Below are positions 1-58,659 of a DNA stretch of 64,000 nt, in pieces; the stretch's first letter is position 1, and each line of letters starts with the position of its first letter. The stretch comes from Betaproteobacteria bacterium (GTDB taxonomy: Bacteria > Pseudomonadota > Gammaproteobacteria > Burkholderiales > Casimicrobiaceae): the NCBI GenBank assembly GCA_013298695.1, contig JAAFIS010000001.1, forward strand, positions 186,001-250,000, read 5' to 3'. A program made the translations under genes and the position numbers. The notes beneath the pieces were generated by a model. The model did no database searches. It saw only the letters and a list, made by a program, of their open reading frames with translations, and was not told the origin of the DNA.

Positions 1-371
1 TCTGCACAACGGATAAATCAAGTTTATGACTTTAACGCCTATTTATATGGGCTTAAGGTTGTATAAAATGAAATATCGAAAATTGCACGAACTATTATGC
101 GCGCCCAATTCGATAGAGCTCATAGCGCGTGAGCTAATGTGAAAATTCAATCGCTGTCATCGCAACTGTCTTGCCCAAATCAACCCGCAGGCGCGAGCCG
201 CGTTGAAAATAAATCAACGATTTCATACACTTAACAACTTGTCACGATTTTGCGCCGGAACTGGCTTGCGTTTGAAGCGGGGATCACTCGGCTTCGATCC
301 ATTTCGTTTCTACGAGCCGCTGCGGCAAAATCTTTAAGTCAAATTCTTGTCACAAACCTGTGGAGGGTTCC
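1..371. other. Non-coding leader region upstream of the TonB-dependent receptor
   Basis: No convincing gene is visible before the receptor start at 372. The stretch is AT-rich and holds one copy of the dispersed paired-palindrome element (35-120). The promoter of the downstream receptor gene probably lies in the remaining 250 bp, but no confident -35/-10 pair was identified. Confidence 0.5.
35..120. repeat. Paired-palindrome element, copy 1
   Basis: The left box ends in GGGC at 49-52 and the right box begins with GCCC at 103, giving an inner spacing of 50 bp. The centre (77/78) reads ATCGAA. It lies upstream of the receptor gene. See the family description in the findings. Confidence 0.75.
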
Positions 372-3098
372 ATGTACGTTAAACAAAAACGGATCGCATT
401 TGCGGTGCTACACGCGGTCGCCGGAATGGCGATTGCTGCTAGCGCATCTGCGCAGACCACTCAGCCTCAAAAGGTTGAGAAAGTTGAAGTCACCGGCTCG
501 AACATTAAGCGGATCGAAGCTGAGTCGGCTAATCCGGTGCAAGTCATCACGCGCCAAGACATTGAGCGCACTGGCGCTGCCACCGTCAATGACGTGTTGC
601 AGCGCATCAGCGGTGCAGGTTACGCAGCCGATGACCGTATCACCAACGGCTTCGCCCCAGGCGGCGGCGCACTCAACCTGCGTGGTTTAGGCTTTAACAG
701 TACGCTGATTTTGATCAACGGACGTCGCCTACCGACCTACCCGTTTGCTCAACAATTCGGCACCTCCCAAGGCTTTAACGACATCAACAGCATCCCGTTG
801 GCAGCTGTTGAGCGTATCGAAGTATTGAAAGACGGCGCATCCGCTATTTACGGCGCTGACGCTGTTGCTGGCGTCGTCAACATTCTGCTCCGCCGCGACT
901 ACACCGGCATGGAAGTTTCTGCAGCGTTCGGTACATCGCAGCGCAGCGACGGTGAAACCTACAACGCAAGCTTTGCTGGCGGCTGGGGCGATCTCGCAAA
1001 AGACCGTTTCAACGTTCTGCTGACCGGCAACATTTCGGGTCGTGACCCGATCGCTGCCAAAGATCGCGACTGGTCGAAAACTGAAGATCTCCGCAATCGC
1101 GGCGGCGCTGATCGCCGTTCCTCATACGGCTACCCCGGCACCATTACCGACTATGAAACAGGTGAAATCGCTTTCGCGGGTGGCGCTTGTGGCCCGACTT
1201 CGCAGCGTGGTGGCTCAAGCGTTCGTGCGGGGTTCTGCCGCTATGATCGTCCGAGCCTCGGCTCGTTGCAGCCGAAGTCTGAAAAAGCGGGCGTTTACAG
1301 CCGCTTGAATTTCGCGATTACACCGGACATCACCGCGTTTGCAGAAGCACTCTTCACGCGTAACAAATTTAAGTCAATTGGCTGGCCTGCAGGCACGACC
1401 GACGACGTCGGTATTGGTACGTTCTACCTGCCCGCTGGCGCACCCAACAACCCGTTCCCGAACGACGCTGATTTGCGCTATCGCTTCTTCGACGTAGGAA
1501 ACCGCGGCGACGACGGCACCACCGACACCACCCGCGCAGTTCTCGGAGTCAAGGGCACCACCGCAGGCTGGGATTGGGAAGGCGCAGCCAACTTCAATCG
1601 CATCAAAATTGACACGTTCGCAACCAACAATACATTGAACTCACGTTTGTTGTGCTTGATGAACCCGCAAGCTGCGGCAAGTTATGCGGCCGGCGGCAAC
1701 CCGCTTGGTTTGGGTACGCTCAATCAAATCTTCGCAGCAAACCCTTCGTATGCTGCCTACTTCCAGCGTGAGCTCGCGAAGTGCGGCGCTGCGTTTGCGC
1801 AGTTCGGCTACTACAACTTCGTTGATCCATCGAAGAACAACGCAGGTGTTGCGGCGTACTTGCGCCACGATTCGCTGCGTCAAGGTCGCTCGAACCTCGA
1901 CGGTTATGATTTCAAAGCCTCGCGCGAGATCATGCAGTTAGCCGGTGGCCCACTTGCGTTCGCGTTCGGTGCTGAAACCCGCAAGGAAAAAGTGTCGGAC
2001 ACGCCTGACATTCAATTGCAAACGGGTGACACGCTCGCGATTAGCGCAGCGCAAGCCTTCGGTTCACGGCGCGTCACCGCTTACTACGGTGAGTTGAATG
2101 CACCGTTGACCAAGTCGCTCGAAGCTAACGTTGCGATCCGCTACGACAAATACTCCGGCAATGGTGACTTTGCGGCAACGTCGCCAAAAGTCGGTTTGCG
2201 TTTCCAGCCAACGTCGCAGCTTCTGTTGCGTGCGACGGCATCGAAAGCGTTCCGTGCGCCATCGTTGTTTGAGACAACGCCTGCACAGCAGACTTCGTTC
2301 TCGTTCGGCATTCGCGACCCGTTGCTCTGTCCAACGGTTGACGAAAATAATCCAAACTGCGGTCTTGATATTCGTCGCGTTCAGTCCGGCAACATCAATT
2401 TGAAAGCTGAGAAATCAACGGCCTACACCGCCGGTATGGTGCTCGAGCCGACGAAGGATCTGTCGCTGTCGTTGGACTTCTGGCAGATTGACCGTAAAGA
2501 CGAAATCACTAGCTTGACCGATCAAGATTTGGTTGATCGCGCGTTCAACAACCCTGCGATCGTCGTTCGCGACACGCAGGGTCGTATCAGCCAGTTGAAT
2601 CAAGTGCCGATCCAGCTTGCGAAAACCAAAGTCAACGGCGTTGATTTCGAGGTTACGCACCGTATGGGTCTTGCCGATGGCAAGCTCACCACGAAGCTTG
2701 GCATGAGCTACGTTGGAACGTTTAAGCAATCCGACCTCGTCACGGGCGAGTTGGTTGAGTTGAACGGTACTTACAACTTGCCACGCTACCGCGGTAACTG
2801 GGACTTCGCGTTCGAGCGCGGTGCTTGGGAATTCTCGGTCGGAGGCTACGGCGTGCATTCGTACGCAGGGTTGAGTTCTTCGCTCAACGATAAAGTCGGC
2901 GCATACGAAGTGTGGAACACATCGTTGACTTACAAAGGTATGAAGAACCTCACCGTTCGCCTTGGCGTTAACAACCTGTTTGATCGCGGAACGCCGTTCA
3001 GCGATGAAACCAGCGGTGCCAATGCAGGCTACAACGTGAGCTTTGCAGAACCTGTCGGCCGCTTCTATACGATCGGCTTGCGCTACCAGTTCCGCTAG
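372..3098 (+). CDS. TonB-dependent outer-membrane receptor
   Basis: This 908-residue protein is an outer-membrane active transporter that takes up a ligand using energy from the TonB-ExbB-ExbD complex. ATG 372 is preferred over GTG 360 because GGAGGG at 362-367 sits just upstream and the protein then begins with a normal signal peptide (about residues 1-28, ending ASAQ). A plug domain follows (the GSNIKRIEAES segment, then RGLGFNSTLILINGRRLP and VERIEVLKDGASAIYGADA), then a long beta-barrel ending in an aromatic-rich strand with terminal Phe-Arg. The GSNIKR-type plug is typical of the large receptors of xanthomonads and caulobacters used for carbohydrates or other organic ligands. The substrate here is unknown. 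The adjacent exbB-exbD-exbD-tonB genes are its likely energisers. Confidence 0.93.
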   Translation: MYVKQKRIAFAVLHAVAGMAIAASASAQTTQPQKVEKVEVTGSNIKRIEAESANPVQVITRQDIERTGAATVNDVLQRISGAGYAADDRITNGFAPGGGALNLRGLGFNSTLILINGRRLPTYPFAQQFGTSQGFNDINSIPLAAVERIEVLKDGASAIYGADAVAGVVNILLRRDYTGMEVSAAFGTSQRSDGETYNASFAGGWGDLAKDRFNVLLTGNISGRDPIAAKDRDWSKTEDLRNRGGADRRSSYGYPGTITDYETGEIAFAGGACGPTSQRGGSSVRAGFCRYDRPSLGSLQPKSEKAGVYSRLNFAITPDITAFAEALFTRNKFKSIGWPAGTTDDVGIGTFYLPAGAPNNPFPNDADLRYRFFDVGNRGDDGTTDTTRAVLGVKGTTAGWDWEGAANFNRIKIDTFATNNTLNSRLLCLMNPQAAASYAAGGNPLGLGTLNQIFAANPSYAAYFQRELAKCGAAFAQFGYYNFVDPSKNNAGVAAYLRHDSLRQGRSNLDGYDFKASREIMQLAGGPLAFAFGAETRKEKVSDTPDIQLQTGDTLAISAAQAFGSRRVTAYYGELNAPLTKSLEANVAIRYDKYSGNGDFAATSPKVGLRFQPTSQLLLRATASKAFRAPSLFETTPAQQTSFSFGIRDPLLCPTVDENNPNCGLDIRRVQSGNINLKAEKSTAYTAGMVLEPTKDLSLSLDFWQIDRKDEITSLTDQDLVDRAFNNPAIVVRDTQGRISQLNQVPIQLAKTKVNGVDFEVTHRMGLADGKLTTKLGMSYVGTFKQSDLVTGELVELNGTYNLPRYRGNWDFAFERGAWEFSVGGYGVHSYAGLSSSLNDKVGAYEVWNTSLTYKGMKNLTVRLGVNNLFDRGTPFSDETSGANAGYNVSFAEPVGRFYTIGLRYQFR

Positions 3099-3104
3099 CA
3101 AAAA

Positions 3105-4864: not shown

Positions 4865-4868
4865 GACT

Positions 4869-6064: not shown

Positions 6065-6114
6065 TTTCTGAGAAGCCAAATGCCACTCGGAAAAGAATAG
6101 CCTTTTTCTATAGC

Positions 6115-6200
6115 ACGCCCATTTCTTTGGGGTAGAAGAGAATAAAAATATTGTTTTGATAAATAATAAATAATCGACTAGCGCCCAAGAAAATAGCAGT
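6115..6200. repeat. Paired-palindrome element, copy 2
   Basis: The left box ends in GGGG at 6129-6132 and the right box begins with GCCC at 6183 (inner spacing 50). The centre reads TTTGAT at 6155-6160. It lies between the tonB terminator and the first ABC permease in a markedly AT-rich gap. Confidence 0.7.
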
Positions 6201-6270
6201 CGTAATTAAAAAGCCAATTTGCAACATGATCAATGCGCCCTTACGCAGTCGCCGTGGATAATCGAGTCCT

Positions 6271-10205: not shown

Positions 10206-10221
10206 TAAGCGTTCGCGCTTA
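10206..10221. terminator. Short hairpin between convergent genes
   Basis: TAAGCG-TTCG-CGCTTA forms a perfect 6-bp stem with a TTCG tetraloop between the lipocalin stop and the fimV stop, which it overlaps. No T-tract follows on either strand, so terminator function is only a guess. Confidence 0.4.
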
Positions 10222-12219
10222 CGGTCGACCTTTGAGAAAGTCATCGAGTTCGCCTGGCTTGGGCGGCTCGATCATGTCGAGCGACAGATCCCATTTCGGT
10301 GTGCCGTCGGTATGGTCGGCACCGGCTGATTCCCCAGCTCGAGCGCTGCCGAGTTGATTGTCGTGTGCCAATTGGTCGTGCAATTGCAGAAGCAAAAGTA
10401 AGTCACGGTAAGCCGACAAACTAAAGCCTAAACGCGATCCGCCACGGTTGTCATGCAGCAGCTCATCGAGGAGCGCACGTGCGTTTGGCGTGCCCCAATC
10501 ACGCTCAATGCGAGCGATCAAATGCGGAAATGCTTCAAGGCCGTCGTCGAGCGCCAGCGCGTTGCCGTAATCATCCCATTCCGGTAAGCGGCCGTTGAAA
10601 TTTTTGCGGAACAGTGGAGAGAGTCGGTCATAGTCTGCGCGGCGATTGGCTTTGCGGAACAAATCAAACAACATGAGCCAGGGCGCGGGCGATGGGCGGT
10701 CGCTCTCGTGGGTGTCGATGTGGTGCGCAAGAATTTCGATTGCTTCGTTGGTGCGACCTAAATCTGCGTACACCTGTGCCTCATCGGTGATGTGCGAAAG
10801 TTCGCTCACGTCGACGCTGCTTGCAGTTTGGTTTGGGTGGAACAGTGGATTTTCAAGACGCGCTCTGGCGTCGCTTGCCGAGGTCGTCGCTGGCGACATT
10901 TGCGTGATGGTCGGCGGCGAACTGTCGCTTAAATCGAGTGCGTTGACTTGCGCAAACGCTTGCTCATCATCTGTTTCTGCGCGCGCGGCGCGGGCGCGAG
11001 TTTGCGTTTCATCGTCACTTCGTTGAACGATGGTGACCGGCGCAGTCGGCGCCCAAGCTGAGGCCGCTGCGCGCTGCTTTGAGCGCCGTGCAGCAAGCAA
11101 ACCAAGCACGCCGACTAAGAGCAGACCGATCGGCGCAAGAATCCACGGCATCCAGCTAAATGTGGTCCCAGTATTGGCCCCGCCTATGACCGTCTTATTC
11201 GATTGGGCGACGGACGCTTTTGGTGCACTTGTCGCTAACGGCGTTGAATTGGGCGCTTGCCCAGCAGAATCGGGATTTGCCGCGCTTAGTTGCGATTGAA
11301 GCTCGGCAATTCGCTTTTTCGCGACGATGAGATCCGCTTCGAGCCGCGCCGGTAGATCTTCTTCAATCGGTGTATTTGCTAACCGTGCGCGGCGATCTTT
11401 GGCAATTGCAGCGGCCAATTCGTCAAGCGGCGCAACGCCTGCTGGCCCGACAGGTGACTCGCTTGCAGCCCAGCTCGGTAAATCGCCAGAAATCTTGAGC
11501 CGTGGCACGGCAAGCGCTGCGAGTGATGCGTCATCAATCGTGGCGTCGTTCCCTTTGAGCACGAGTCGCGAATCTGGCGCTTTTGCGCTGCGGCGCGGCG
11601 CTTCGCGCTTCGCTGCGCTGGCGGAGCGGCTGCGATCCGTTGCCACCGTGGCACGGTCGCGGCGCAGGGTCTGTGCGCGCTGCGCTGGCGCCGGGGCTGA
11701 ACTCGTTGTCGCTGTCGCACTCGTTGTGGCGTTGGCGGCCGCTGCCGTGGTCGTAGGGGTGGCGGGAGATTCCGTTGTCGGCGCAACGATAGTGGGAATG
11801 TTGATCGGGGCAGGATCGAGTAGTACCGTGAATTCGCGTTTGAGCGGCGCTTCGCAACCCACATCGATAACAAACTTGACCGCTGGATCTTCGATCGCGC
11901 TCACGCTTCGAACCAACAATCGATCTCTGCCGGGTGACAAACTTAACCGGCCATCGCGCAGTGCGAGCACGCCATCGCGCCGCGGCGCAGGCGCAAGCGC
12001 GAAACAGTTCAGATCCCACGATTCGGAAGCACCCGCAGAAATCGGAATTTCGACGCGAAGCGATTGTCCGAGGTAGCTGACAACGCGCTCAGAGCCCAAG
12101 GTTAGCGCTTCGCTTATCGTCGCTGCGGTTCCCAAAATCGACGCGAACAAAATGCTCGCAGTAAGCGCGCTAAGTCGATGTCCGGAAGAAGTCGAGCGGT
12201 TAAAAGTGAGAGATGCCAT
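10219..12219 (-). CDS. fimV: FimV-like pilus assembly / polar organisation protein
   Basis: Read from ATG 12219 the protein has about 666 residues; an upstream in-frame ATG at 12282 exists but would bury the signal peptide. After a signal peptide comes a FimV N-terminal domain (LTLGSERVVSYLGQSLRVEIPISAG...), an Ala/Thr-rich linker, a coiled-coil-prone segment (around LEADLIVAKKRIAELQSQLS), one membrane helix (WMPWILAPIGLLLVGVLGLL), an acidic cytoplasmic stretch and a C-terminal TPR-like region (YADLGRTNEAIEILAHHI, then PWLMLFDLFRKANRRADYDRL). This matches FimV, an inner-membrane peptidoglycan-binding scaffold for type IV pili. It is shorter than Pseudomonas FimV, as is usual in betaproteobacteria. 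Confidence 0.85.
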   Translation of the reverse strand: MASLTFNRSTSSGHRLSALTASILFASILGTAATISEALTLGSERVVSYLGQSLRVEIPISAGASESWDLNCFALAPAPRRDGVLALRDGRLSLSPGRDRLLVRSVSAIEDPAVKFVIDVGCEAPLKREFTVLLDPAPINIPTIVAPTTESPATPTTTAAAANATTSATATTSSAPAPAQRAQTLRRDRATVATDRSRSASAAKREAPRRSAKAPDSRLVLKGNDATIDDASLAALAVPRLKISGDLPSWAASESPVGPAGVAPLDELAAAIAKDRRARLANTPIEEDLPARLEADLIVAKKRIAELQSQLSAANPDSAGQAPNSTPLATSAPKASVAQSNKTVIGGANTGTTFSWMPWILAPIGLLLVGVLGLLAARRSKQRAAASAWAPTAPVTIVQRSDDETQTRARAARAETDDEQAFAQVNALDLSDSSPPTITQMSPATTSASDARARLENPLFHPNQTASSVDVSELSHITDEAQVYADLGRTNEAIEILAHHIDTHESDRPSPAPWLMLFDLFRKANRRADYDRLSPLFRKNFNGRLPEWDDYGNALALDDGLEAFPHLIARIERDWGTPNARALLDELLHDNRGGSRLGFSLSAYRDLLLLLQLHDQLAHDNQLGSARAGESAGADHTDGTPKWDLSLDMIEPPKPGELDDFLKGRP

Positions 12220-12378
12220 TAAATCCGTACGAGCGATCAGCGCTTTTGGAGTCACCGCGGCGGGGACTCTTGAAGCCGTCATTCAGACCGTGCTCGAAGC
12301 AATGCCGATTGCGTTGCGAATATGCGAGTGTATCGTTCTCGCAAGAGCCGCGCCAACGCGGCTTGCAGTCGAATCTTC

Positions 12379-13595: not shown

Positions 13596-15193
13596 TACGG
13601 CGAGCTGGTAGCACGCGCTTCGCTGCGTACTTCGCCGCTATCGTCGCCCGCGTCGCCGGTCGCCAGCGCGAGCAACTCGCTTGTCTTCTTATTACGGTTT
13701 CTACCGCCGCGCCTACGTCTGCGGGGCTTTTCGGCACCTTCAGCTGTGGTCTCGATATCCTGAATTATATCGTCGTTCACCCAATTGGATTGGGCAGAAT
13801 CGTCGATAGTCGTAGTTCTTTGAGCGGCTGCCGTTGGCTCTGCGCGCGCCTGCGAATCACGCGTCGCGCCCTGCCGATCATCGCGCGGCGCACGAGTGCG
13901 TTGGCGCTCAGAATTGCGCGATCCACGTTGTGCAGCACGCAGGCGTTGATCGATCAATTGCTGACGCACTTCGGGGTCAGACTCAATGAATTCCGTCCAC
14001 CAGGTGGCGATTTCCTGATCAATCTCACCTGCCGCTGCGCGCAGCAGCAAAAAGTCGTATGCGGCGCGAAATCTGGCTTGCTCAACCAGTCGCAACGCGG
14101 CGCGCGATGTGCGCTGTTCGAAGCGCGGCTGCATCAGCCAAATTTCTCGCGTGACGCCGGCAAAGCGCTGCGGCAAAGTGATCGTTTCGCGCTGCTCGTC
14201 GAGCACTTGCTCCATGGCAGTGAGCAGCGCCGGGATGCGATGCTCGCCGCGACTGGTGAGCTCGTCCCAGCGCTTGAGCACTTCGTGCCACAACAGCGTT
14301 GCAAACAAAAACGCAGGCGACACCGGTTTGTCTTCGCGAACGCGGCGATCGGTGCCTTCGAGCGCAAGTTGAATAAAACGCTGCCCGCCGGGCTGCGCAT
14401 AGATCAGATCAAGCAGCGGCAGCAAGCCCTCGGCGAGGCCGTGTTCACGCAGCGCCGCTAGCGTGTCAGACGCGTAGCCAGAAAGAAGTAGCTTCTGGAT
14501 CTCATCGAACAGCCTCGCGGTCGGTACGTTTTTGATGAGCGCTGCATTTTTTTTGATCGGCGTCGCGGTGCTTTTTGCGATGGTGCAATTGAGTTTCACC
14601 GACAGCCTAACCGCGCGCAACATGCGCACAGGGTCTTCTCGATAACGCAGCTCAGGTTTGCCGATGCAGCGAAAGGTTCGCGCTTTGATGTCTTTCAGTC
14701 CGTCGACAAAATCGACAACGCGGTCGTGGCTTGGATCGTAGTAGAGCGCATTGATCGAGAAATCGCGGCGCAGCGCATCTTCGCTCTGTGTACCGTATAC
14801 GTTGTCGGAGGTGATGCGACCGGTGGCGTCTGACTCAACCTTTTTTGTACTGTTGCTGCGAAACGTCGACACTTCAATGGTTTCATCACCAAAGATCACA
14901 TGAACTAAGCGAAAGCGTCGGCCGATCACGAAGGCGCGGCGAAAAAGGTTTTTTACTTGTTCAGGTCGCGCGTTGGTGGCGACGTCGAAATCTTTGGGCA
15001 CTGCGCCCAGCAGCGCGTCGCGCACTGCGCCGCCAACAATGTAGGCTTCAAAGCCTTGCTCTTGAAGTCGCTCGCACACGTAGACGGCGTTGCGGCTCAT
15101 GGCATTGGCGGCGATACCGAGCGAAGCACCGCTGACTTCGCGGCGTTTCGGGGCACGCTCAGGAAGAACTCGTTCGAGTAGCGCTCTAATCAT
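13595..15193 (-). CDS. pcnB: Poly(A) polymerase I
   Basis: This 532-residue enzyme adds 3' poly(A) tails that promote RNA decay. The nucleotidyltransferase head is clear: YIVGGAVRDALLGAVPKDFDVAT with the catalytic DxD pair, then RRDFSINALYYDPSHDRVVDF and RYREDPVRMLRAVRLSVKLN. The arginine-rich C-terminal region (after about residue 430) is low-complexity and ends in RRRRRGGRNRNKK followed by a degenerate tail, typical of PcnB RNA-binding extensions. A candidate copy of the dispersed paired-palindrome element lies inside this disordered tail. It is first in the pcnB-folK-dNK run. Confidence 0.94.
   Translation of the reverse strand: MIRALLERVLPERAPKRREVSGASLGIAANAMSRNAVYVCERLQEQGFEAYIVGGAVRDALLGAVPKDFDVATNARPEQVKNLFRRAFVIGRRFRLVHVIFGDETIEVSTFRSNSTKKVESDATGRITSDNVYGTQSEDALRRDFSINALYYDPSHDRVVDFVDGLKDIKARTFRCIGKPELRYREDPVRMLRAVRLSVKLNCTIAKSTATPIKKNAALIKNVPTARLFDEIQKLLLSGYASDTLAALREHGLAEGLLPLLDLIYAQPGGQRFIQLALEGTDRRVREDKPVSPAFLFATLLWHEVLKRWDELTSRGEHRIPALLTAMEQVLDEQRETITLPQRFAGVTREIWLMQPRFEQRTSRAALRLVEQARFRAAYDFLLLRAAAGEIDQEIATWWTEFIESDPEVRQQLIDQRLRAAQRGSRNSERQRTRAPRDDRQGATRDSQARAEPTAAAQRTTTIDDSAQSNWVNDDIIQDIETTAEGAEKPRRRRRGGRNRNKKTSELLALATGDAGDDSGEVRSEARATSSP
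13711..13795. repeat. Candidate paired-palindrome element inside pcnB
   Basis: The right-hand box ACCCAATTGGATTGGGC (13779-13795) is the best 17-bp box match inside a gene. A GC-rich left box (GCC-N10-GGGC, 13711-13727) lies 51 bp away with TCGAT near the centre. The spacing is one base off the family and the left box could be chance, so this is only a candidate. Confidence 0.3.
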
Positions 15194-16003: not shown

Positions 16004-16065
16004 TCGCTCGCCGCCTGAAGCGGGGCGACACGTGCCGGTCTTGTCTAATCAAACTTATACGTCGA

Positions 16066-16150
16066 AATCCCAATTTATTTGGGGCAAGATCAAATATTAG
16101 TTTGTTAGCGATAAACCTAGTTAGTAGGTGAATCGCCCATCAGAATAGCC
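16066..16150. repeat. Paired-palindrome element, copy 3
   Basis: The left box TCCCAATTTATTTGGGG runs to 16084 (GGGC 16082-16085) and the right box begins with GCCC at 16135 (inner spacing 49). The centre reads GCGAT (CGAT 16109-16112). It lies in the 278-bp gap between ppa and the response regulator gene. Confidence 0.7.
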
Positions 16151-16281
16151 GCTTTAAGCCCGTAGCTGAAGTCGATTTCGAATGGATTCCCTGACATCGG
16201 TTTGGGCAGGGCAGACCTACAATTCTTTGGCAACGCGAAACGGCTGACCACGATCAACTGAGCGCGGCTAAGGAGAGGCGA

Positions 16282-20662: not shown

Positions 20663-21030
20663 GGCTTTTGTACCTAATTAAGCGCAAAAGTTTAGCGTTT
20701 GCTGCTTACGTATTGATCTTGTCGCCCTAGGTCTAGCGCTGGCCTACATGACGCGCATGTGCTGTGTGGATCTTTTGGCGAAAAGGCCAGAACGCCTAAT
20801 TTGATGGGTGAACTGCTAAATTGTACCGTCTACCGAATATGCATGATAAATAGGTTTCGCCCCATTAAAACTGACGCTATGGGCGTAATGTTATTACCGT
20901 ACTTGAGCGATGTCGACATGCAATGTATGCGGACTCGCCGCGGTGCGGCTCGAAAGTGGAGCGACGGCAAACTCGCTCTCGAACATCGTAGTGACGCTAG
21001 ACGCGAATAAGCGAAGAAACTCAACCGAGA
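20663..21030. other. Gene-free gap between ybaK and the tRNA terminator
   Basis: No supported gene. The stretch holds one paired-palindrome element (20791-20876) and presumably the ybaK promoter near 20690. A short open frame on the plus strand (20759-21010) has no ribosome site or recognisable protein content and is dismissed. Confidence 0.5.
20791..20876. repeat. Paired-palindrome element, copy 4
   Basis: The left box ACGCCTAATTTGATGGGT ends at 20808 and the right box GCCCCATTAAAACTGACGC starts at 20858 (inner spacing 49, or 50 to the CCCC). The centre reads ACCGAA with CGAA at 20833-20836. Confidence 0.7.
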
Positions 21031-22948: not shown

Positions 22949-23045
22949 GGGGTGAGCACCTTTGATTTCATGCGAAGACGGTTGCGTATCGATGAGAAAA
23001 ACGAAAGCGAACGGTTTCGTAACAACGTATCAACAACTTAAGTCA

Positions 23046-23133
23046 ACGCTCAATTAAACTGGGCGAACGGACATAAATTAGTGTTTTTCGAAGCGTACGC
23101 TTTTCGAAGGTAACGCCCAATAAATTCGGGCGG
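23046..23133. repeat. Paired-palindrome element, copy 5 (inside the sox cluster)
   Basis: The left box GCTCAATTAAACTGGGC ends at 23064 and the right box GCCCAATAAATTCGGGC starts at 23115 (inner spacing 50). TTCGAA lies exactly at the centre (23087-23092). Of all copies this one has the most complete right-hand palindrome. It lies between soxX and soxB. Confidence 0.8.
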
Positions 23134-23196
23134 TAGCGCCTTAAGCAGCCACGCAATCGCTCGCATCTCGTACGGAGCGCGGCGCACCGTTTTAAC

Positions 23197-28746: not shown

Positions 28747-28788
28747 TGATACTAGGGGAAACGTTAGGTGAAGAACTACGCTGATAAA

Positions 28789-28875
28789 TGCTCAAAAAAA
28801 CACGGGCGAAGGAGCGCAAAAAATATAAACACGAGTTAGCACGTTTAACGCACTATAGCCCAATAGAAAAGGTCT
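28789..28875. repeat. Paired-palindrome element, copy 6
   Basis: The left box GCTCAAAAAAACACGGGC ends at 28807 and the right box starts with GCCC at 28858 (inner spacing 50). The centre reads ACGAG (28831-28835). It lies in the divergent gap between soxR and ligE. Confidence 0.7.
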
Positions 28876-28969
28876 AATAGCGAACTAGTTGATTCTGAAA
28901 TATTCGAGCTTTTCCGGCGAAACCACCGCGCTAGACTCGCGGCACTCGCCAATTCTGGATCGCCTCGTC

Positions 28970-31283: not shown

Positions 31284-31309
31284 AACCTATCGCCCTAAAT
31301 TCTATGGAT
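31225..31309. repeat. Paired-palindrome element, copy 7 (overlaps the surA start)
   Basis: The left box ACGCCATAACTTTGGGC ends at 31241 inside surA codons 14-19, and the right box starts with GCCC at 31292 in the lptD-surA gap (inner spacing 50). The centre reads AACGAA (31264-31269). The surA start codon (31281-31283) lies between the centre and the right box. Confidence 0.7.
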
Positions 31310-31322
31310 TACCGCAGAGTTT

Positions 31323-35085: not shown

Positions 35086-35778
35086 ATGACGATCAATGTG
35101 TGCGCGATGATTCTTGCTGCGGGGCGGGGCGAGCGGATGCGTCCGCTCACCGATCAAACACCGAAACCACTGATCGAAATTCGCGGAAAACCGCTTATCG
35201 TGCATCACATCGAAAAGCTTGTGGCTATCGGCGTCGAACGTATTGTGATTAACGTGTCGTATCGCGCGGAGCAAATCCAAGCGACGCTCGGCGATGGCAG
35301 CCGATTCGGGTGCGAGCTCTGTTACTCAGTTGAAGACACGCCATTGGAGACGGGCGGCGGCGTCGCAAGAGCTTCAGCTTACTTTGATAAACCTCAATTT
35401 ATATTGGCGAGCGCGGATGTTTATTGCGAATATGACTTTCAACGATTTCTTGTGTATCGCCCAATAGAAGCTAACGGTACGAAGAATTCTCGCAACGCAC
35501 ATTTCGTGATGGTCCATCCAATTTCTGGGCAGCCTGGCGGCGAGTTTGCAATCGATGAAAATGGCCGCTTAAACCGTGGGCATCCGCGCCTCACGCTGGC
35601 CAACATCGGAATTATCAAAACATCTGCAGTACAACACTGGCCGCGCGGTGAACGATTCCCGCTGCTACCGTTCTATAGCGAATGGGTGGCGGCAGGACAG
35701 GTAACAGGCGAGCGATATGACGGGTTGTGGTGCAACGTAACAACACCCGACGACGTCCTATTTTTGAATCAAAACTAG
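35086..35778 (+). CDS. murU: MurU, N-acetylmuramate alpha-1-phosphate uridylyltransferase
   Basis: This 230-residue nucleotidyltransferase makes UDP-MurNAc from MurNAc-1-phosphate, the step after AmgK. The sugar-nucleotidyltransferase signature AMILAAGRGERMRPLTDQTPKPLIEI contains the GxGxRxxPxT-K loop. Further motifs are ETGGGVARA and LASADVYCEYDF. A region around residues 125-135 (YRPIEANGTKNSR) appears to be an insertion relative to the Pseudomonas enzyme and coincides with the right half of a paired-palindrome element. Its stop is separated by one base from the next start. Confidence 0.94.
   Translation: MTINVCAMILAAGRGERMRPLTDQTPKPLIEIRGKPLIVHHIEKLVAIGVERIVINVSYRAEQIQATLGDGSRFGCELCYSVEDTPLETGGGVARASAYFDKPQFILASADVYCEYDFQRFLVYRPIEANGTKNSRNAHFVMVHPISGQPGGEFAIDENGRLNRGHPRLTLANIGIIKTSAVQHWPRGERFPLLPFYSEWVAAGQVTGERYDGLWCNVTTPDDVLFLNQN
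35391..35475. repeat. Paired-palindrome element, copy 13 (inside murU)
   Basis: The left box CCTCAATTTATATTGGC ends at 35408, the right box GCCCAATAGAAGCTAAC starts at 35459, and the inner spacing is exactly 50. The central motif is weak (ATGACT). The reading frame is open throughout (residues 102-130 of MurU). The left half encodes a family-conserved peptide, so this copy could be partly coincidental. Confidence 0.45.
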
Positions 35779-41348: not shown

Positions 41349-42608
41349 ATGAAGGTAACGGTACTCGGTGCGGGACTCATTGGTGTTGCGACTGCCTACT
41401 ATTTGTGGCGCGACGGGTATGACGTCGAGGTGCTCGAACGCAATGACGATGCGGCATGTGAAACAAGCTATGCGAATGCAGGTTTAGTTTCAGCGTCACG
41501 CGCCTTGCCGTGGCCAACTCCGAGTGCGCACAGAACGATTTGGCGCGCACTGACGGACATCAACGCGTCGATGCGCATCATCAAACCACTTGATCCTCGG
41601 TTGTGGAAATGGGGCGGAGAGTTTCTCTCCTACGCCACTGAATCGGAATTCGAACGCTTGGCGCGTGCAAAGCTCGCGTTCGCGAAGTTTTGCCAAGACC
41701 AATTGCAGGCAACACTTGCGCAAACGGGTGTTGAGTGTGGCTATCGGCAAAACGGATTGCTCTACGTGTGCAAAAGTATCGCGGCCTTTGAAGCGGCGCG
41801 AGCAAGGGCAAAACTAGTTGCGAGCCACGGCTACGAGGTGCGCATGCTCTCACGCGCAGAGGCAATCGCGCTTGAGCCATCGCTGAGAAACAGTGATTTC
41901 GTGGGCGCGAGTTTCGCTGTATCCGATGCGCAGGGCGATTCACGCGCCTTCACGCGCGCTCTTGTGCGTTACTTGCAAGCGCGCGGTGTGAAATTTCGTT
42001 TTGGCGTTCAGATTGATGCCGCGCTCTCCGTAGTTGATCGCGGCTACACGATCTACGCGAACAGCGAAGAGCAACACGCTGACAAATTCGTTGTCGCACT
42101 CGGGCCGCGCAGTTATCACTTTGCGAAGCAAATGAGTTTGAAGCTGCCGCTGTATCCGGTGAAGGGTTTCTCGCTCACCGTGCCGATCAAAGATCGTTCG
42201 CGCGCACCGACGCGCGGTGGCATTTGCGAAGATACGCTCGTTGCTTATTGCCCGCTAGGCGACACCATGCGGCTCACCACCGGCGCGCATTTTGCAGGCG
42301 ACGATACGACGTTTACCGACCACGATTTCATCGCGCATCATGAGAGTTTCGAATCGCTCTTTCCCGGCGCGCTCGACTGGAGTGATGAATCGAAGATCGA
42401 GAGATGGGCGTGCTTGCGACCCATGACGCCGTCGTCGCTGCCCATCATCACAACGACCGTTGACCGATTCGGCGACGGCACGCTCATTTGGAATTGCGGC
42501 CACGGCCACATCGGCTGGACGATGTGCTGCGGGTCTGGAAAAGTTGCCGCGGATTTAGTCGCTGAACGTTCGCCCGAGTTCGCACTCAATCAACTTCAGA
42601 AAGCGTAA
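41349..42608 (+). CDS. dadA: D-amino acid dehydrogenase, small subunit type
   Basis: This 419-residue FAD enzyme of the inner membrane deaminates D-amino acids such as D-Ala and passes electrons to quinone. The dinucleotide-binding motif is VLGAGLIGVATAYYLWRDG near the N-terminus with VEVLERND. Substrate-domain segments GYRQNGLLYVC and YPVKGFSLTVPI, and the C-terminal WACLRPMTPSSLPII and GHGHIGWTMCCGSGKVAADL are all DadA-like. No alr/dadX racemase is adjacent. Confidence 0.93.
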   Translation: MKVTVLGAGLIGVATAYYLWRDGYDVEVLERNDDAACETSYANAGLVSASRALPWPTPSAHRTIWRALTDINASMRIIKPLDPRLWKWGGEFLSYATESEFERLARAKLAFAKFCQDQLQATLAQTGVECGYRQNGLLYVCKSIAAFEAARARAKLVASHGYEVRMLSRAEAIALEPSLRNSDFVGASFAVSDAQGDSRAFTRALVRYLQARGVKFRFGVQIDAALSVVDRGYTIYANSEEQHADKFVVALGPRSYHFAKQMSLKLPLYPVKGFSLTVPIKDRSRAPTRGGICEDTLVAYCPLGDTMRLTTGAHFAGDDTTFTDHDFIAHHESFESLFPGALDWSDESKIERWACLRPMTPSSLPIITTTVDRFGDGTLIWNCGHGHIGWTMCCGSGKVAADLVAERSPEFALNQLQKA

Positions 42609-42623
42609 TAGCTTTGTAATCTC

Positions 42624-42708
42624 CAGCCCAATAAATACGGGCGATAGCTATATTTTATGTTGATTTCGAAAATATGTGCGAATTACGCTTTCGCCCAATT
42701 TTGCGGGA
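42624..42708. repeat. Paired-palindrome element, copy 8
   Basis: The left box GCCCAATAAATACGGGC ends at 42642, the right box starts with GCCC at 42693, and the inner spacing is 50. TTCGAA lies exactly at the centre (42665-42670). It fills most of the gap between two convergent genes. Confidence 0.8.
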
Positions 42709-42728
42709 AGACTAGGACAAAAGCCAAA

Positions 42729-43871
42729 CTACTTTTCAATGACTTCAAACGCCAAAAATTGCGTGATCTGGCGACGATTGAAGTTGTCGTCGCTGACGAC
42801 GATGAGCGTGCGATTTCCGTTCGCCAAACGTGGTCCGAAGGTCATGGCTTCCGTGTTATCGAGGCGCTGCAAATTGAGCGAATCGAAGTTGATGATGAGG
42901 GTTTTTTTCACGACGCGGTGATTGTCGGGGTTGAGTGCTGCGATGTTTTTGGTGTCGCTGCCATCGCGGGTGTCGATGAGATAAATGCGCAGCGAATTGC
43001 CAACGCCTACTGAGAAACTTCGCTCTAACACCAGCATGCGATGCTCGTCGAACATGAGCACCTCAGGGACGCCGTTATCTGCATACGCAGTGGGCGGCAT
43101 CGGGCGATGTGGAATTGCATCGGATTGATAGGCGATTTGGCGCAGCGCTTTGCCGCTTGCGATTTCGTATTGCGTGATGCGCAGGGGTGCGCCGCCGCTC
43201 GCCACGCTCGGCGTTGCGCCATCTTCATAAATCGGCCCTTCCATGGCGACCCACACGCTTTTGCCGTCGCGAGCGATTGTCATGCCTTCAAAGGTTGTGT
43301 TGTCGCGCGAACCAGTGTCGCCTGGCTTCATTGCAAACATCGGCGAGGTTGGGATTTCGCGAATGAAACTGCCATCGATTCTCATTTCGCGCAGGAACGG
43401 TGAGAGGTTTAACTTTTTGTCGCCCTCACTCGTCCAGAGCAGCGTGTCGGTTTCGGCGCGGTAGCGAATGGCTTCGGGATCGGGCACGTTGAGCGGATCG
43501 GTTTTCTGACTGCCAAACGAACTACCGTCGGGTTTTTTGAGCAAGGTCACAGCGGTGAACACGGGCTTAGCAAACTCGGTGCTGGTGATGTTTAGTTTGG
43601 CCGTATAAAAGCGCGCAGGATCATTGTCTGAGCGATCATCTGAGAGCAGATAAAACACGTTGCGCGCAACGTCATAGTCGATGCCCGAGATACCACCGAA
43701 GACGGTGTTGTCTACTTGCGACCGGTGCTCGATAGTTTGCTCGCCGATAAGCCGTAAGCTCAGCGCCGAAATCTTTGCGGTCGCCGAAGTCGATGGCGGT
43801 GCAACCGAACAACCCGACGCGACAAACCCGAACAAACAAGCGAGGGCGAATTGAGCAAAGATCTTGAACAT
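42729..43871 (-). CDS. Esterase-like / phytase-like beta-propeller lipoprotein
   Basis: This 380-residue protein has a signal peptide ending at lipobox VASGC from ATG 43871, so it should be a lipoprotein. The body matches the phytase-like domain family (esterase-like activity of phytase): GGISGIDYDVARNVFYLLSDDRSD, DPEAIRYRAETDTLLWTSEGD, FEGMTIARDGKSVWVAMEGP, NTEAMTFGPRLANGNRTLIVVSDDNF. Such proteins are predicted propellers that release phosphate or hydrolyse esters, but the substrate is not established. Confidence 0.85.
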   Translation of the reverse strand: MFKIFAQFALACLFGFVASGCSVAPPSTSATAKISALSLRLIGEQTIEHRSQVDNTVFGGISGIDYDVARNVFYLLSDDRSDNDPARFYTAKLNITSTEFAKPVFTAVTLLKKPDGSSFGSQKTDPLNVPDPEAIRYRAETDTLLWTSEGDKKLNLSPFLREMRIDGSFIREIPTSPMFAMKPGDTGSRDNTTFEGMTIARDGKSVWVAMEGPIYEDGATPSVASGGAPLRITQYEIASGKALRQIAYQSDAIPHRPMPPTAYADNGVPEVLMFDEHRMLVLERSFSVGVGNSLRIYLIDTRDGSDTKNIAALNPDNHRVVKKTLIINFDSLNLQRLDNTEAMTFGPRLANGNRTLIVVSDDNFNRRQITQFLAFEVIEK

Positions 43872-45950: not shown

Positions 45951-46505
45951 ATGACTACAGTTTCCATCGTCTATCACTCAGGTTACGGACACACGAAAGC
46001 AATCGCTGAGGCGGTGCAGAAAGGCGCGGCTGCGGCTGGCGCACAGGTTCACTTGATGGCCGTTGACGCGATCAACTGGGACACACTGAATGGGTCGCAC
46101 GCGATCATCTTCGGTTCACCCACTTACATGGGCGGCCCATCGGGTCAGTTCAAAATGTTTGCCGACGCCACGAGCAAGGTTTGGTTTACCTACGGCTGGA
46201 AAGACAAGATCGCAGCGGGCTTCACCGTCTCGTCCTCACGCAACGGCGACAAAGCGTCCACGCTTTCGTATTTCCAAACACTCGCGATGCAGCATCACAT
46301 GGTTTGGGTGGGTAACGACGTGCCACCGGGCAACAAAGACAGCAAAGGCACCGAAGGCGACATGAATCGCTTGGGCGCAGCTGCGGGTCTTATGGCGCAA
46401 GGTAATGCGGACCAAGGCGTTGAAGGGATTCACGAGAGTGATTTCCGCACTGCTGAGGCGTTTGGCAAACGTGTCGCCAACGCGACAGCACGCTGGAACA
46501 AGTAA
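45951..46505 (+). CDS. Flavodoxin-like NAD(P)H:quinone oxidoreductase (WrbA-like)
   Basis: This 184-residue cytosolic flavoprotein has an FMN-binding loop SIVYHSGYGHTKAIAEAV, then GSPTYMGGPSGQFKMFADATSKVW and GFTVSSSRNGDKASTL. It reduces quinones by two electrons to avoid semiquinone radicals. ATG 45951 starts the conserved MTTVSIVYHS; the upstream open frame overlaps DUF2798 and is not coding. It is the last gene of the pirin module. Confidence 0.92.
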   Translation: MTTVSIVYHSGYGHTKAIAEAVQKGAAAAGAQVHLMAVDAINWDTLNGSHAIIFGSPTYMGGPSGQFKMFADATSKVWFTYGWKDKIAAGFTVSSSRNGDKASTLSYFQTLAMQHHMVWVGNDVPPGNKDSKGTEGDMNRLGAAAGLMAQGNADQGVEGIHESDFRTAEAFGKRVANATARWNK

Positions 46506-46521
46506 ACAGCATATTCGCGCG

Positions 46522-46606
46522 TCGCCCAGTTGAATTGGGCAAACGGATAGATTATGCGATTTAACGAATAACTATTGGAATGCGACGTTAGCCTATTAAA
46601 TGCGGC
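46522..46606. repeat. Paired-palindrome element, copy 9
   Basis: The left box GCCCAGTTGAATTGGGC ends at 46540 and is a near-perfect 17-bp palindrome. The right box GCCTATTAAATGCGGC starts at 46591 (inner spacing 50), and the centre reads AACGAA (46563-46568). It lies between convergent genes. Confidence 0.8.
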
Positions 46607-46637
46607 ATTACATATCGATAGTTGGTGACCTTGATCT

Positions 46638-51411: not shown

Positions 51412-51443
51412 GGCGCTCAACTCTTCGAGTTGAGCGCCTTTTT
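51412..51443 (+). terminator. Intrinsic terminator after the receptor gene
   Basis: GGCGCTCAACTC (51412-51423) pairs perfectly with GAGTTGAGCGCC (51427-51438), followed by TTTTT. Its 3' arm forms the left edge of a paired-palindrome element. Confidence 0.92.
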
Positions 51444-51519
51444 AATTGGGCGACAGTCGACTTTATGGCGCTGCGCGGAAAATTAATAAAGCGCGACTGA
51501 CGCCCAGCTAAATTGAGCA
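51434..51519. repeat. Paired-palindrome element, copy 10 (fused to a terminator)
   Basis: The left box GCGCCTTTTTAATTGGGC ends at 51451 and shares its GCGCC and T-run with the preceding terminator. The right box GCCCAGCTAAATTGAGC starts at 51502 (inner spacing 50). The centre reads GCGGAA (51475-51480). It lies between convergent genes. Confidence 0.7.
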
Positions 51520-51571
51520 CTCGCGAATGAGGTGTAGAGGTTTAGCGGACGCGCTGGCGCGGTGCGTAGCG

Positions 51572-53074
51572 CTACTGGGCGACGGCTGTCGAGTGGTTGT
51601 CCGACGACATAAGCAATTGCGATGAAGTGTTGTCCTGCGAGGCTGTAATCGCCCACGCAGCGTCGCTGACATCCGCGACCAGTGCAATGCTTGCGTCGCC
51701 GTTGCGCCAGCGGATTTCAAGCGTTGAGCCGTTACTCGCTGAGACGTCGCACTTGCCGTTAAACGCGGCATGCGTATTTCGCAGTTGAATCAACGTGATG
51801 AGTTTTTGCACGACGGGTCGACGAAGTGCCGCTTCTAGTTCATTACTCGAAAAACGGTGACGGTTGATATCGCGCCCGACTTGGGTCTGGCGTAGTAGCA
51901 CCATGTCATTAGTTTCGGCAAGTAAACCCACGTAGTACACCTGCGGCACGCCGGGCACAAAGAACTGGATCGCACGAGCTAGAAGGTATAAATTCTCGTC
52001 GCGACCGAGCGCGTCGAAGTAGGTGCTGTTCACCTGATACAGATCTAGATTTGATGCTGCAGCGCCAGTTGCCTCGCGACTCTCGCCGTTGCAATTTAGG
52101 TGAATGCGCTCAACGAGTTGATCAAGTTCCTCGGGTGAGACGAGTCCCGGTCGCAGCGCGCGATCCGTAGCATCGGCGCCGATATCAATGATCCCGATAC
52201 CGTCGTGGGTGTCGAGCACGGTGATTGCGTTGTGAGGGCGGATATCGAGCCAACGCGTTAATGCATCAATGCGCTTAAAAAGAAGCGCGTGCAATACAAG
52301 CGGTGGGAGCGCGAAGTCATAGACCCAATCTACGCGCTTGGCAATATCGATTTGGCGCTGATAGTACGAGTGAATCTCGACGAGCACTTCCAAGCCCAGT
52401 GCCCGCGCTTTGCTCGCGAAAGCGTCGATAAATTCAAACGTCTCTGGCAGCATGAAGCAGCTCGTGCCCGCGCGCTTGATTGCGTAACCCACTGCATCGA
52501 GCCGCACCATACTGACACCGCTCGCTGCAAGCCGCGACAGGATCGAGTCGAGATACGCCGCACCTTCGGAATGCTCAACGTCGATATCGATTTGCTTGGG
52601 CGTGAACGTTGTCCACAGTACTTGTTCCTCGCCGGTGTCGAGCTTGACCCGCGTAAACGGTGAGCCTGGGCGCGGCCTGTAGATCGCGAGCAGTTGCGAT
52701 TCTGATGCGCCGTTCGGAAACACTGTGTTCATTGAGAGAAACAGTCCGCGATAGCGCGACTCATTGCCCCTCGAGAGATAGTCTTTAAACTGAGGCGAAT
52801 CTGAGGACACGTGATTGACGATCACATCGGCCATGACCGGTGTCGATTGCGCGAGTGTTGCAACGTCATCCCACGTGCCGAGACGAGGATCGACGAGTGT
52901 GTGATCGATGGGATCGAATCCAGCGTCCGCACCGTCAATCGGATGAAAAAATGGAAGCAAATGAACACCACCAAATACATTGCTGAGTTGAGTGTTTAGC
53001 AATGCCGTTAGGTCAGCGACCGTGCCACCACCCAATCGGTCAACATAGGTGATGAGTTGCACCTGATTTTTCAT
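51572..53074 (-). CDS. Sucrose phosphorylase (GH13_18)
   Basis: This 500-residue cytosolic enzyme splits sucrose with phosphate to alpha-glucose-1-phosphate and fructose. Catalytic residues are visible near the positions known for the Bifidobacterium enzyme: nucleophile Asp193 (MVRLDAVGY), acid/base Glu233 (VLVEIHSYY) and Asp291 (VLDTHDGIGI). The N-terminus NQVQLITYVDRLGG and GVHLLPFFHPIDGADAGFDP are hallmark segments. Related GH13_18 enzymes act on sucrose 6-phosphate or glucosylglycerate; with no PTS permease in the locus, sucrose is the best guess. It is divergent from the MFS permease across a LacI operator. Confidence 0.9.
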   Translation of the reverse strand: MKNQVQLITYVDRLGGGTVADLTALLNTQLSNVFGGVHLLPFFHPIDGADAGFDPIDHTLVDPRLGTWDDVATLAQSTPVMADVIVNHVSSDSPQFKDYLSRGNESRYRGLFLSMNTVFPNGASESQLLAIYRPRPGSPFTRVKLDTGEEQVLWTTFTPKQIDIDVEHSEGAAYLDSILSRLAASGVSMVRLDAVGYAIKRAGTSCFMLPETFEFIDAFASKARALGLEVLVEIHSYYQRQIDIAKRVDWVYDFALPPLVLHALLFKRIDALTRWLDIRPHNAITVLDTHDGIGIIDIGADATDRALRPGLVSPEELDQLVERIHLNCNGESREATGAAASNLDLYQVNSTYFDALGRDENLYLLARAIQFFVPGVPQVYYVGLLAETNDMVLLRQTQVGRDINRHRFSSNELEAALRRPVVQKLITLIQLRNTHAAFNGKCDVSASNGSTLEIRWRNGDASIALVADVSDAAWAITASQDNTSSQLLMSSDNHSTAVAQ

Positions 53075-53249: not shown

Positions 53250-54557
53250 ATGGCCGCAATGAAGCCACGGATGTCACTGTCGCAGATCATTAACATGAAC
53301 TTTGGGTTTCTCGGAATTCAGTTCAGCTTTGGTTTGCAGCAAGCCAACATGAGCCCGATTTACAACTATCTTGGTGCAGACGAAGCCAGTTTGCCGCTTC
53401 TATGGCTCGCAGGGCCAATGACAGGCCTAATCGTGCAGCCGATCATCGGCGCACTATCTGACCGCACGACCTCGCGATTGGGTCGTCGCACGCCTTACTT
53501 TTTGATCGGCGCAATTTTGTGCAGCTTGTGTCTGCTCGCGATGCCATATAGCCCGACGCTCTGGATGGCGGCGAGTTTGCTCTGGATTCTGGACGCCGCG
53601 AACAACGTAACCATGGAGCCTTACCGCGCCTTTGTCAGCGATAAGCTCAATAAAGATCAGCATGCGCTGGGTTTCCTGACGCAAAGCGCGTTCACCGGTC
53701 TCGCGCAAACGCTTGCCTATCTTGCGCCGTCGCTTTTGGTCTGGTTCGGGATGAACAAAGACGCGGTGGGCACCAACAATATCCCGCAAATCGTGTTTGT
53801 TGCGTTCGTGATCGGCGCAATTTTGTCGTCAGCCACTGTTTTATGGTCGGTGTTTACCACGCGGGAAGAGCCGCTGCCAGCGGCAACGCTTGCCGAGATG
53901 AAGGCGAAACCATTTGGGTTGATTCCCGCGCTCAAAGAAGTGTGGGATGCATCGAAAGATATGCCCTCAACGATGAAGCAACTCGCGGTTGTCTATCTAT
54001 TTCAGTGGTACGCGCTGTTTTGCTATTGGCAATACATCACGCTCGCGGTGTCGAAATCGCTGTACGGCACGACCGATGGCACGACCACTGCGTTTCGCGA
54101 CGCAGGTTTGCTCACGGGGCAAATGGGCGCGTTCTACAACTTCATCGCGTTTATTTCAGCGTTTGCGATGGTGCCGCTTGCGAGGCGCTTTGGGTCGAAG
54201 GGCTTGCACATGGTGTGCTTGTTTGCGGCAGGCGTTGGAATGTTGGCGATTCCCGAGATCAAAAATCAATCGATGCTATTTGTTGCCATGATCGGCATGG
54301 GGCTCGCATGGGGCAGCATCATGGGCAATCCGTATGTGATGCTCGCGGGCAGCATCCCGCCTGAGCGCACCGGTGTGTACATGGGCATCTTCAATATGTT
54401 CATTGTGATCCCGATGATGATTCAGATTTTCACGCTGCCGCTGTATTACAAATCGCTGTTGGGCGGTGATCCACAAAACGCAATTCGATTGGGCGGCGCT
54501 CTGATGATTTGCGCAGCGATTGCGACGATTTGGGTGAAGCTAGAGAAGGATAAATAA
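53250..54557 (+). CDS. MFS sugar transporter (sucrose permease type)
   Basis: This 435-residue inner-membrane carrier has twelve predicted helices and the SLC45/SuxC-like features [24 protein letters not shown] near the N-terminus and [18 protein letters not shown] in the first cytoplasmic loop. AAAAGGAGGG lies just before ATG 53250. It shares the LacI operator with sucrose phosphorylase. Proton-coupled import of sucrose or maltose-type disaccharides is the likely role. Confidence 0.9.
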
Positions 54558-54578
54558 TCCTTCAGCTATACGCGCTCA

Positions 54579-54664
54579 TTGCCATTTAAAGTGGGCGGCA
54601 CGTGGTGTCAACGAAATAGTTGAAGTAGCTCCAATAAAGCGATTAGCCCAATTAAATAGGCGTC
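54579..54664. repeat. Paired-palindrome element, copy 11
   Basis: The left box GCCATTTAAAGTGGGC ends at 54596 and the right box GCCCAATTAAATAGGC starts at 54646 (inner spacing 49). The centre reads GTTGAA with TGAA at 54621-54624. It lies between the convergent MFS and metW genes. Confidence 0.75.
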
Positions 54665-54732
54665 TAAGCGATAGAGCCGATTGACTCAATAGCGCGCCAT
54701 GTGCTCGCTGGCGATGCGGACAGTGTTAGGGC

Positions 54733-56477: not shown

Positions 56478-56490
56478 GGCTCACAAACGA

Positions 56491-58476: not shown

Positions 58477-58575
58477 ACGAATGATGGTAGCGGGTTTGTG
58501 TGAAGTTTGGGTGAACGACTAGGTTTTCGCAAACGGAAGAACGTTTTGTATTGTGGATACAGCTTATAGACGATA

Positions 58576-58659
58576 ACGCCATTATTGCTGGGCGAAGAGC
58601 TCAGTAGAGATTTAATTCAATAGAATGAAGGAATAGGGCGTCTGCCCAATCAATACGGA
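58576..58659. repeat. Paired-palindrome element, copy 12
   Basis: The left box GCCATTATTGCTGGGC ends at 58593 and the right box GCCCAATCAATACGGAT starts at 58644 (inner spacing 50). The centre reads TTCAAT (58616-58621). It lies between ptsI and tgt, both on the minus strand. Confidence 0.75.

Follow-up and report, generated by a model that had tools for sequence, protein, structure and literature searches.

The matS, KOPS, SlmA and Noc sites are protein targets that occur in many dispersed copies under selection, and they are short (8–24 bp). The DNA gyrase motif of Escherichia coli is described as 130 bp in length (−63 to 66), symmetric about the cut and with phased G/C in its flanks (PMC6379681), and for the gyrases of three species a common palindromic region of ~120 nt with a GC periodicity of 10–11 bp has been reported, together with the cleavage-core preferences −4G/+8C, −2A/+6T and +1G/+4C (PMC12324340). 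Here we analyzed a 64,000-nt stretch of a betaproteobacterial genome (Betaproteobacteria bacterium, family Casimicrobiaceae; assembly GCA_013298695.1, contig JAAFIS010000001.1, positions 186,001 to 250,000; hereafter the window), in which an initial annotation made from the letters alone had pointed out a dispersed element of two paired palindromic boxes. These boxes were found to be the inner parts of a single dyad-symmetric unit of ~124–136 bp that is restricted to one genus, and which we tentatively regard, with slightly less than even confidence, as a lineage-specific chromosome-architecture site read by a putative DNA-wrapping protein, DNA gyrase being the main rival.

Like the class of matS, KOPS, SlmA and Noc sites, the element occurs genome-wide and is selectively kept in place, whereas it differs from them in being ~125 bp long and rich in information. 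Compared with the E. coli gyrase motif and the strong gyrase site of phage Mu, it is similar in its length of ~130 bp, its dyad symmetry, the A/T–G/C phasing of its arms and its bias towards the downstream side of genes (PMC6379681, PMC12324340), but is unlike gyrase sites in carrying letter-specific boxes at four distances, in occurring in one genus only, in its hundreds of high-information copies and in a centre that departs from the core preferences. With BIME-2/REP units it has in common an intergenic location, hundreds of copies per genome and a possible domain role (in part PMC6379681); unlike these, it has no sequence common by descent, no clear hairpin covariation, and positions that are shared with a related species. 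Searches of the literature on such elements and on dispersed gyrase-type sites, with subscription papers mostly outside their reach, gave no matching description among the papers listed, and "undescribed", as the initial annotation put it, is therefore the best available reading.

A symmetric weight matrix was learned from the window plus 400 kb of its contig (464 kb in all), and flexible spacing was allowed when it was scanned; in the following, G0 denotes the window genome G000, and G2, G5, G10 and so on denote its relatives in the genus, G002, G005, G010 and so on. The plan of the element consists of outer boxes CAGCTTTT at ±52–59, mid boxes at ±26–42, A/T runs around ±14 and a TCGA centre. 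Aligning 55 exact-spacing sites on the dyad showed conserved positions reaching ~±62 and weak A/T bands to ±69, with an information content of 57 bits after symmetrising. Read to the right, GA follows the dyad within TTATCGATAA, succeeded by A/T at ±12–15 and ±24, then by the mid box with GCCC at ±26–29 (position 25 before it), AATTAAATT at ±30–38 and GG(G/C) at ±39–42, and finally by A/T at ±44–45, AAAAGCTG at ±52–59 and the weak A/T bands at ±60–62 and ±66–69. The mid boxes themselves are locally palindromic. Paired boxes were present at all 13 places where they had been noticed, each place also scoring 38.7–72.6 bits in the ±72 bp model, and in this sense the "paired palindrome" exists, but it forms only the middle part of a single dyad-symmetric site that has a centre and outer boxes of its own, and the length of 84–88 bp first given to the element proved too short.

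An excess of sites over chance was confirmed. Over the 464 kb, 70 sites scored above 25 bits compared with 0, 0 and 0 in three first-order shuffles, and the counts formed a plateau of 75, 71 and 70 at thresholds of 20, 22 and 25 bits, while a threshold of 10 bits gave 125 matches compared with 14–21 in the shuffles. Among 83 matches above 18 bits, which include a few overlapping partial matches, the net spacing was exact in 61, −1 in 9, +1 in 7 and otherwise in 6. Genome-wide, the pattern TGGGCN{49,50}GCCCAAT gave 106 + 118 strand matches (1 + 1 in the reversed control), and a 24-position pattern that recovers 47 of the 70 source sites without extras gave 393 (control, 0), which at this recovery corresponds to ~585 sites in 4.08 Mb. 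For exact GGGC–N–GCCC pairs in the window, the proposed spacing of 49–50 held in part, with a peak at 50 (nine pairs) but none at 49, since its three pairs are equalled at spacings 32 and 59; all other spacings from 30 to 70 had fewer. A recurrence of about every 5 kb fits the window with its 14 strong sites (13 in the initial annotation); over the 464 kb the density is one site per 6.4 kb. Between copies, 14 motif-neutral positions were 26.4% identical compared with 25.3% expected, and the best pair among the 70 copies reached 58.9% identity over 124 bp, which indicates that these are independent sites and not copies. Once column composition was allowed for, pairs across the dyad or inside the mid box did not covary in G2, G5 and G10, and this argues for a protein site rather than a hairpin.

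Comparison of G000 with G002 (139 reciprocal best hits, mean protein identity 73.7%) provided 61 syntenic gaps, of which 14 had a site in both genomes, two only in G000, none only in G002 and 45 in neither. Copies at orthologous positions in a relative, which the initial annotation had suggested looking for, were thus found for 14 of the 16 comparable G000 sites. The letters of the sites had turned over: aligned ungapped from the dyad in 12 bands, orthologous sites differed from unrelated ones by −0.05 to +0.05 in identity, six bands lying above and six below. Other genome pairs had few syntenic gaps, namely 20 in G002–G010 (one site in both, one only in G010) and 0–1 in the rest. Behind rplQ, a site was located at 120–136 bp (167 bp in G010) in 12 of 13 bearers in which the gene was found, with none in G004 or in the two non-bearers. 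Behind gyrA, a site of at least 48 bits lay at 63–165 bp in 10 of 14 bearers, including the GGTCGTT-type G012, and G009 had a weak one (17 bits), while the non-bearers G008 and G016 (195 bases covered) had none. Among 14 bearer rRNA loci with 1.5 kb covered, a site followed the 5S gene in two, at 466 and 473 bp; these are one locus each in G002 (L239) and G000 (L245), the other 12 being without.

The genus restriction was determined with an outer-box/core pattern, AGCTTT-N50-TCGA-N50-AAAGCT with at most two mismatches, and its reversed control. It had 9–257 matches (control 0–6) in 15 of the 17 genus members, nine of them with at least 51, and the two non-bearers had one (G008) and none (G016). 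Only 9–24 matches (control 2–6) were found in G000, G001, G002, G004, G009 and G015, which were confirmed as bearers otherwise, by models in G000, G002, G001 and G015, a 46-bit site in G004 and the rplQ site in G009. In 47 other genomes of the family the matches remained at chance level (0–3, control 0–2), as they did in 24 genomes of other families in the order (0–3, control 0–3). Expectation-maximisation in each species yielded a common frame with clade-specific letters. The centre is TTATCGATAA in G0, AAGTCGACTT in G5, G11, G12, G13 and G1, and TTTTCGAAAA in G10; the mid boxes are of the GCC..GGGC type in G0, G2 and G5, GCC.wAT.AAATAAGG in G10, and CGAC..GGTCGTT in G12 and, more weakly, in G3 and G7. 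The models built from 4 to 10 sites (G1, G3, G7, G11, G12, G13 and G15) are approximate, and some of their peaks are due to chance.

Gene context was surveyed with our own gene caller in five stretches totalling 1.26 Mb. Among gaps of at least 110 bp, half of the convergent ones had a site (40 of 80), compared with 80 of 316 between tandem genes and 18 of 107 between divergent genes (convergent versus divergent, p = 2.4e-6; tandem versus divergent, p = 0.085). Sites in tandem gaps of this size were closer to the upstream stop in 61 of 80 cases (median 81 versus 167.5 bp), and their dyad always lay at least 55 bp from it; in G2, two convergent sites lay at 50 bp and one in a 109-bp gap at 35 bp. 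The sites that fell within called genes numbered 12 of 70 (G0), 7 of 30 (G2) and 0 of 13 (G5). In 35 G0 sites, the halves facing upstream and downstream showed no score bias relative to transcription (p = 0.6). When gaps were drawn at random from the same set for comparison, spacing proved more even than chance in three of the five stretches, with coefficients of variation (CV) of 0.58 in G2a (p = 0.014), 0.54 in G2b (p = 0.005) and 0.44 in G10 (0 of 2000) versus 0.85–0.88, and marginally so in G5 (CV 0.59, p = 0.05); short distances were avoided in G0, where three were under 2.5 kb compared with 12.3 expected (0 of 2000). Occurrence throughout the genus, retention in place, mostly even spacing and 3′-end location make "chromosome-organising site", the other suggestion made at first sight, the best available reading.

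Three explanations not involving an architectural protein or gyrase were weighed against these data. That the elements are decayed copies of a mobile or copied repeat (REP/BIME, MITE or integron-like site) would suit hundreds of mostly intergenic palindromic units, but the near-chance neutral identity, the 14 of 16 positions common to G000 and G002 (at larger distance positions do change) and orthologous sites no more alike than unrelated ones speak against a mobile repeat or transposon ends, a reading that we reject as very improbable; the "repeat family" of the initial annotation is therefore not supported as copied sequence. A strict exact 20-base version of the motif, searched as an exact pattern only, had no match in viral contigs. 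An RNA structure, with the mid boxes forming 3′ UTR stabiliser or terminator hairpins, is scarcely more probable: the local palindromes, the location in 3′ regions and a weak pairing excess in G0 are in its favour, but covariation is absent from three of the four species, the halves show no asymmetry relative to transcription, and a hairpin or cruciform is thus unsupported. In the window, Rfam at the gathering score returned only a tRNA. Somewhat better placed, though still improbable, is a protein roadblock at which transcription arriving from either side would stop, in place of hairpin terminators. The element is symmetric, abuts stop codons and occupies half of the convergent gaps, and hairpin terminators were rarer at site-bearing gene ends (13/160 versus 47/316, p = 0.04; 24/400 at random places); however, this difference is small and comes from a home-made detector, the rplQ sites leave ~60 bp between stop and element, sites also lie inside called genes in G0 and G2, and termination alone does not predict the avoidance of short distances in G0.

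The most serious rival, which we consider possible but rather doubtful, is that the elements are strong DNA gyrase sites. Gyrase wraps ~130 bp symmetrically around its cleavage point, and selection would have placed high-affinity sites downstream of genes, where they would relieve positive supercoiling or hold domains fixed, which would make them counterparts of the strong site in Mu and of BIME-2 in E. coli. Their length and symmetry agree with this, the signal reaching ±62 and weakly ±69 compared with −63 to 66 in E. coli (PMC6379681), and their 3′-end and convergent location and phased A/T composition suit it as well. When a 10-kb segment of phage Mu containing the annotated cut (9862 positions) was searched with the A/T profile of the sites, the gyrase dyad formed a local maximum and ranked 16 (G0), 18 (G2), 20 (G10), 31 (mean) and 304 (G5); with flanks shifted outward by 1, 2 and 3 bp it ranked 7, 1 and 23, these shifted or stretched variants being chosen after the fact. 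On the other hand, shifts of +4, +5 and −1 to −5 lowered the Mu dyad to ranks 477–3492, 12 of 300 block-permuted profiles did as well there, the top Mu match of the unshifted profiles sat 19–20 bp from the dyad, and the profiles did not recover the known gyrase site at position 990 of pBR322. In pSC101, the top match of six of eight profiles fell in the A/T-rich gap that precedes the replication gene, where par and composition are indistinguishable. The G0 centre does not carry the core preferences and the G5 centre AAGTCGACTT carries −2A/+6T only. The best-fit period was 9.35–10.3 compared with 10.75 in E. coli (PMC6379681), and over positions 0–70 the G0 bootstrap was 9.7–9.95; from flanks 16–66 alone it was 9.8–13.0, and for five of the six species the value of 10.75 falls within the range. 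Few sites follow rRNA operons (the 2 of 14 loci above). The C-terminal domain (CTD) of GyrA is 85–97% identical across the genus, and that of the window genome is 90% and 85% identical to those of G008 and G016, although both are without sites; none of the CTD residues changes along with the mid-box switch of G003, G007 and G012. Restriction to the genus despite similar CTDs, with no residue following the mid box, suggests a reader other than gyrase; gyrase may act at the sites but is not likely to be their only reader.

According to the architectural reading, then, each element would be one symmetric binding site for a protein complex, with specific contacts at the TCGA centre, the mid boxes (±26–29 and ±39–42) and the outer CAGCTTTT (±52–59), and with A/T bands spaced roughly 10 bp apart in between, a pattern that bending or wrapping of ~125–136 bp would be expected to give. 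The sites, which mostly lie behind stop codons and on average every 6–14 kb, would probably be fixed anchor or barrier points of supercoil or loop domains, and not switches of single genes. Their reader would most likely be a lineage-specific architectural protein whose mid-box specificity shifted between clades. Anatomy, number, position, retention in place with turnover of letters, and genus restriction are observed; the wrapping, the architectural role and the dedicated protein are what we infer from them. Several results weigh against this reading. A single sinusoid accounts for only 12–26% of the variance of the A/T profile, which makes wrapping a guess, and the reader protein was not found. 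Eight CTD positions set G008 and G016 apart from all bearers and leave room for a gyrase difference. The scarcity of hairpin terminators at the sites suits a terminator-like role, and G0 has a weak pairing excess at the dyad (41.0% versus 39.5%, z = 2.6) and in the mid box (49.4% versus 47.3%, z = 2.4). Spacing in G0 has a CV no lower than random (1.08 versus 0.90, p = 0.93), because 63.8 kb separates two occupied gaps, and operon structure could yield part of the evenness outside G0. Nearby sites are missing behind gyrA in the bearers G003, G007 and G014, and of the 16 genomes inspected at tgt with the models available for this comparison, just four had a site directly behind the gene (G000, G002, G011 and, weakly, G009). 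Together with the retention behind rplQ and gyrA, these absences indicate that sites persist long, yet their positions do turn over at larger distance.

The coordinates of the 14 strong sites of the window are given in Table 1; a weak 15th peak (13692–13815, 19.0 bits) was left out of the count. The initial annotation had assigned 12 copies to gaps and one, at 35391, to a gene. The latter copy does lie within a gene (dyad 35433), but by our own gene calls so does a second site (dyad 11233), and a third (31266) overlaps a predicted gene start.

Table 1. Strong sites of the dyad-symmetric element in the window (positions of the window; boxes and centres where recorded).
Feature	Coordinates	Dyad	Strand	Context and boxes	Score (bits)	G002
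Element 1	16–139	77|78	none	upstream of TonB receptor gene (Pfam); TGGGC/GCCCA, centre ATATCGAAAA	72.6	
Element	6096–6219	6157|6158	none	tandem gap; outer AGCCTTTT / AAAAGCCA	72.2	site in orthologous gap
Element, new relative to initial annotation	11172–11295	11233|11234	none	within open reading frame 10219–12282	47.0	
Element	16048–16171	16109|16110	none	gap between pyrophosphatase and response regulator genes	72.2	kept
Element	20773–20896	20834|20835	none	tandem gap close to tRNA-Leu	56.2	
Element	23028–23151	23089|23090	none	tandem gap	67.7	kept
Element	28771–28894	28832|28833	none	gap called divergent	41.1	kept
Element	31205–31328	31266|31267	none	between lptD (Pfam) and next gene, overlapping predicted 5′ end of the latter	47.8	
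Element	35372–35495	35433|35434	none	within nucleotidyltransferase gene (Pfam)	45.6	
Element	42606–42729	42667|42668	none	fills 120-bp convergent gap, stop to stop; outer TAGCTTTG / AAAAGCCA	68.2	kept
Element	46504–46627	46565|46566	none	convergent gap	66.5	kept
Element	51415–51538	51476|51477	none	convergent gap	51.3	kept
Element, net spacing −1	54560–54683	near 54621	none	convergent gap	38.7 ungapped, 44.4 flexible	kept
Element	58557–58680	58618|58619	none	behind tgt, before PtsI-like gene; outer CAGCTTAT / AGAAGCTG	69.7	

Some neighbouring features were recorded in passing. Two window proteins, at 10219–12282 (687 aa, holding an element in its reading frame) and 51572–53074 (500 aa), had no Pfam match at 1e-10. 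A 435-aa protein beside an element (53250–54557) has its nearest named relatives (~72%) in Oxalobacteraceae and further relatives of 64–70% in records labelled Bacteroidetes, Gemmatimonadaceae and Sphingomonas; this spread of labels may reflect either horizontal transfer over a wide range or bins with wrong labels. Long TGTAGGAGCGG..CCGCTCCTACA hairpins that look like ordinary REP-like palindromes occur in G001 (L146) and G010 (L147), on the 5′ side of tgt. Elsewhere on contig C1 of the window genome, ~55 kb at ~574–629 kb (L025–L027) are without an above-threshold element, with a GC content of 0.551 compared with 0.555 elsewhere; among seven large proteins scanned from this stretch, matches to PhoX, PhoD and UvrD-like families were obtained for three, and the remaining four matched nothing in Pfam at 1e-8.

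Motif pairs have also been described in related bacteria, GCTTAT(N)5AAGCG in Acidovorax ebreus and ATAGCT(N)22CAAAAG in Polaromonas (Tong et al., 2017; PMC5217627), and the present element shares with them an intergenic position, a high frequency between convergent genes, mostly small distances to genes and an unexplained function. In G126 (L246–L257) and G234 (L258–L265), two genomes of one order in which its matches cluster, GCTTAT(N)5AAGCG forms the core of a palindrome with AGCGCTT..AAGCGCT and ATAGCT/AGCTAT arms, mostly in intergenic-looking places. As these 14 (G126) and 8 (G234) copies sit in a shorter palindrome and not in the 125-bp plan, the Acidovorax motif was rejected as the present element. 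Acidovorax belongs to the Burkholderiales, and the Acidovorax-type palindrome is a separate dispersed element in another family of the same order.

How supercoil domain borders are set in bacterial chromosomes is a long-standing question, and in well-studied bacteria these borders appear to be mostly movable. A possible, if rather unlikely, picture is that of a genus with ~600 positioned nucleosome-like particles, in which a dedicated protein would wrap ~130 bp at fixed, even places behind genes and so define domains, protein and site having co-evolved such that the inner boxes differ on one frame. If this were true, hundreds of strong, fixed and mostly even sites would allow the borders of domains to be predicted from the sequence. 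A composite site of 125 bp keeps its place despite the turnover of its letters, and the change of its inner box between clades would imply a putative DNA-binding protein that co-evolves with it.

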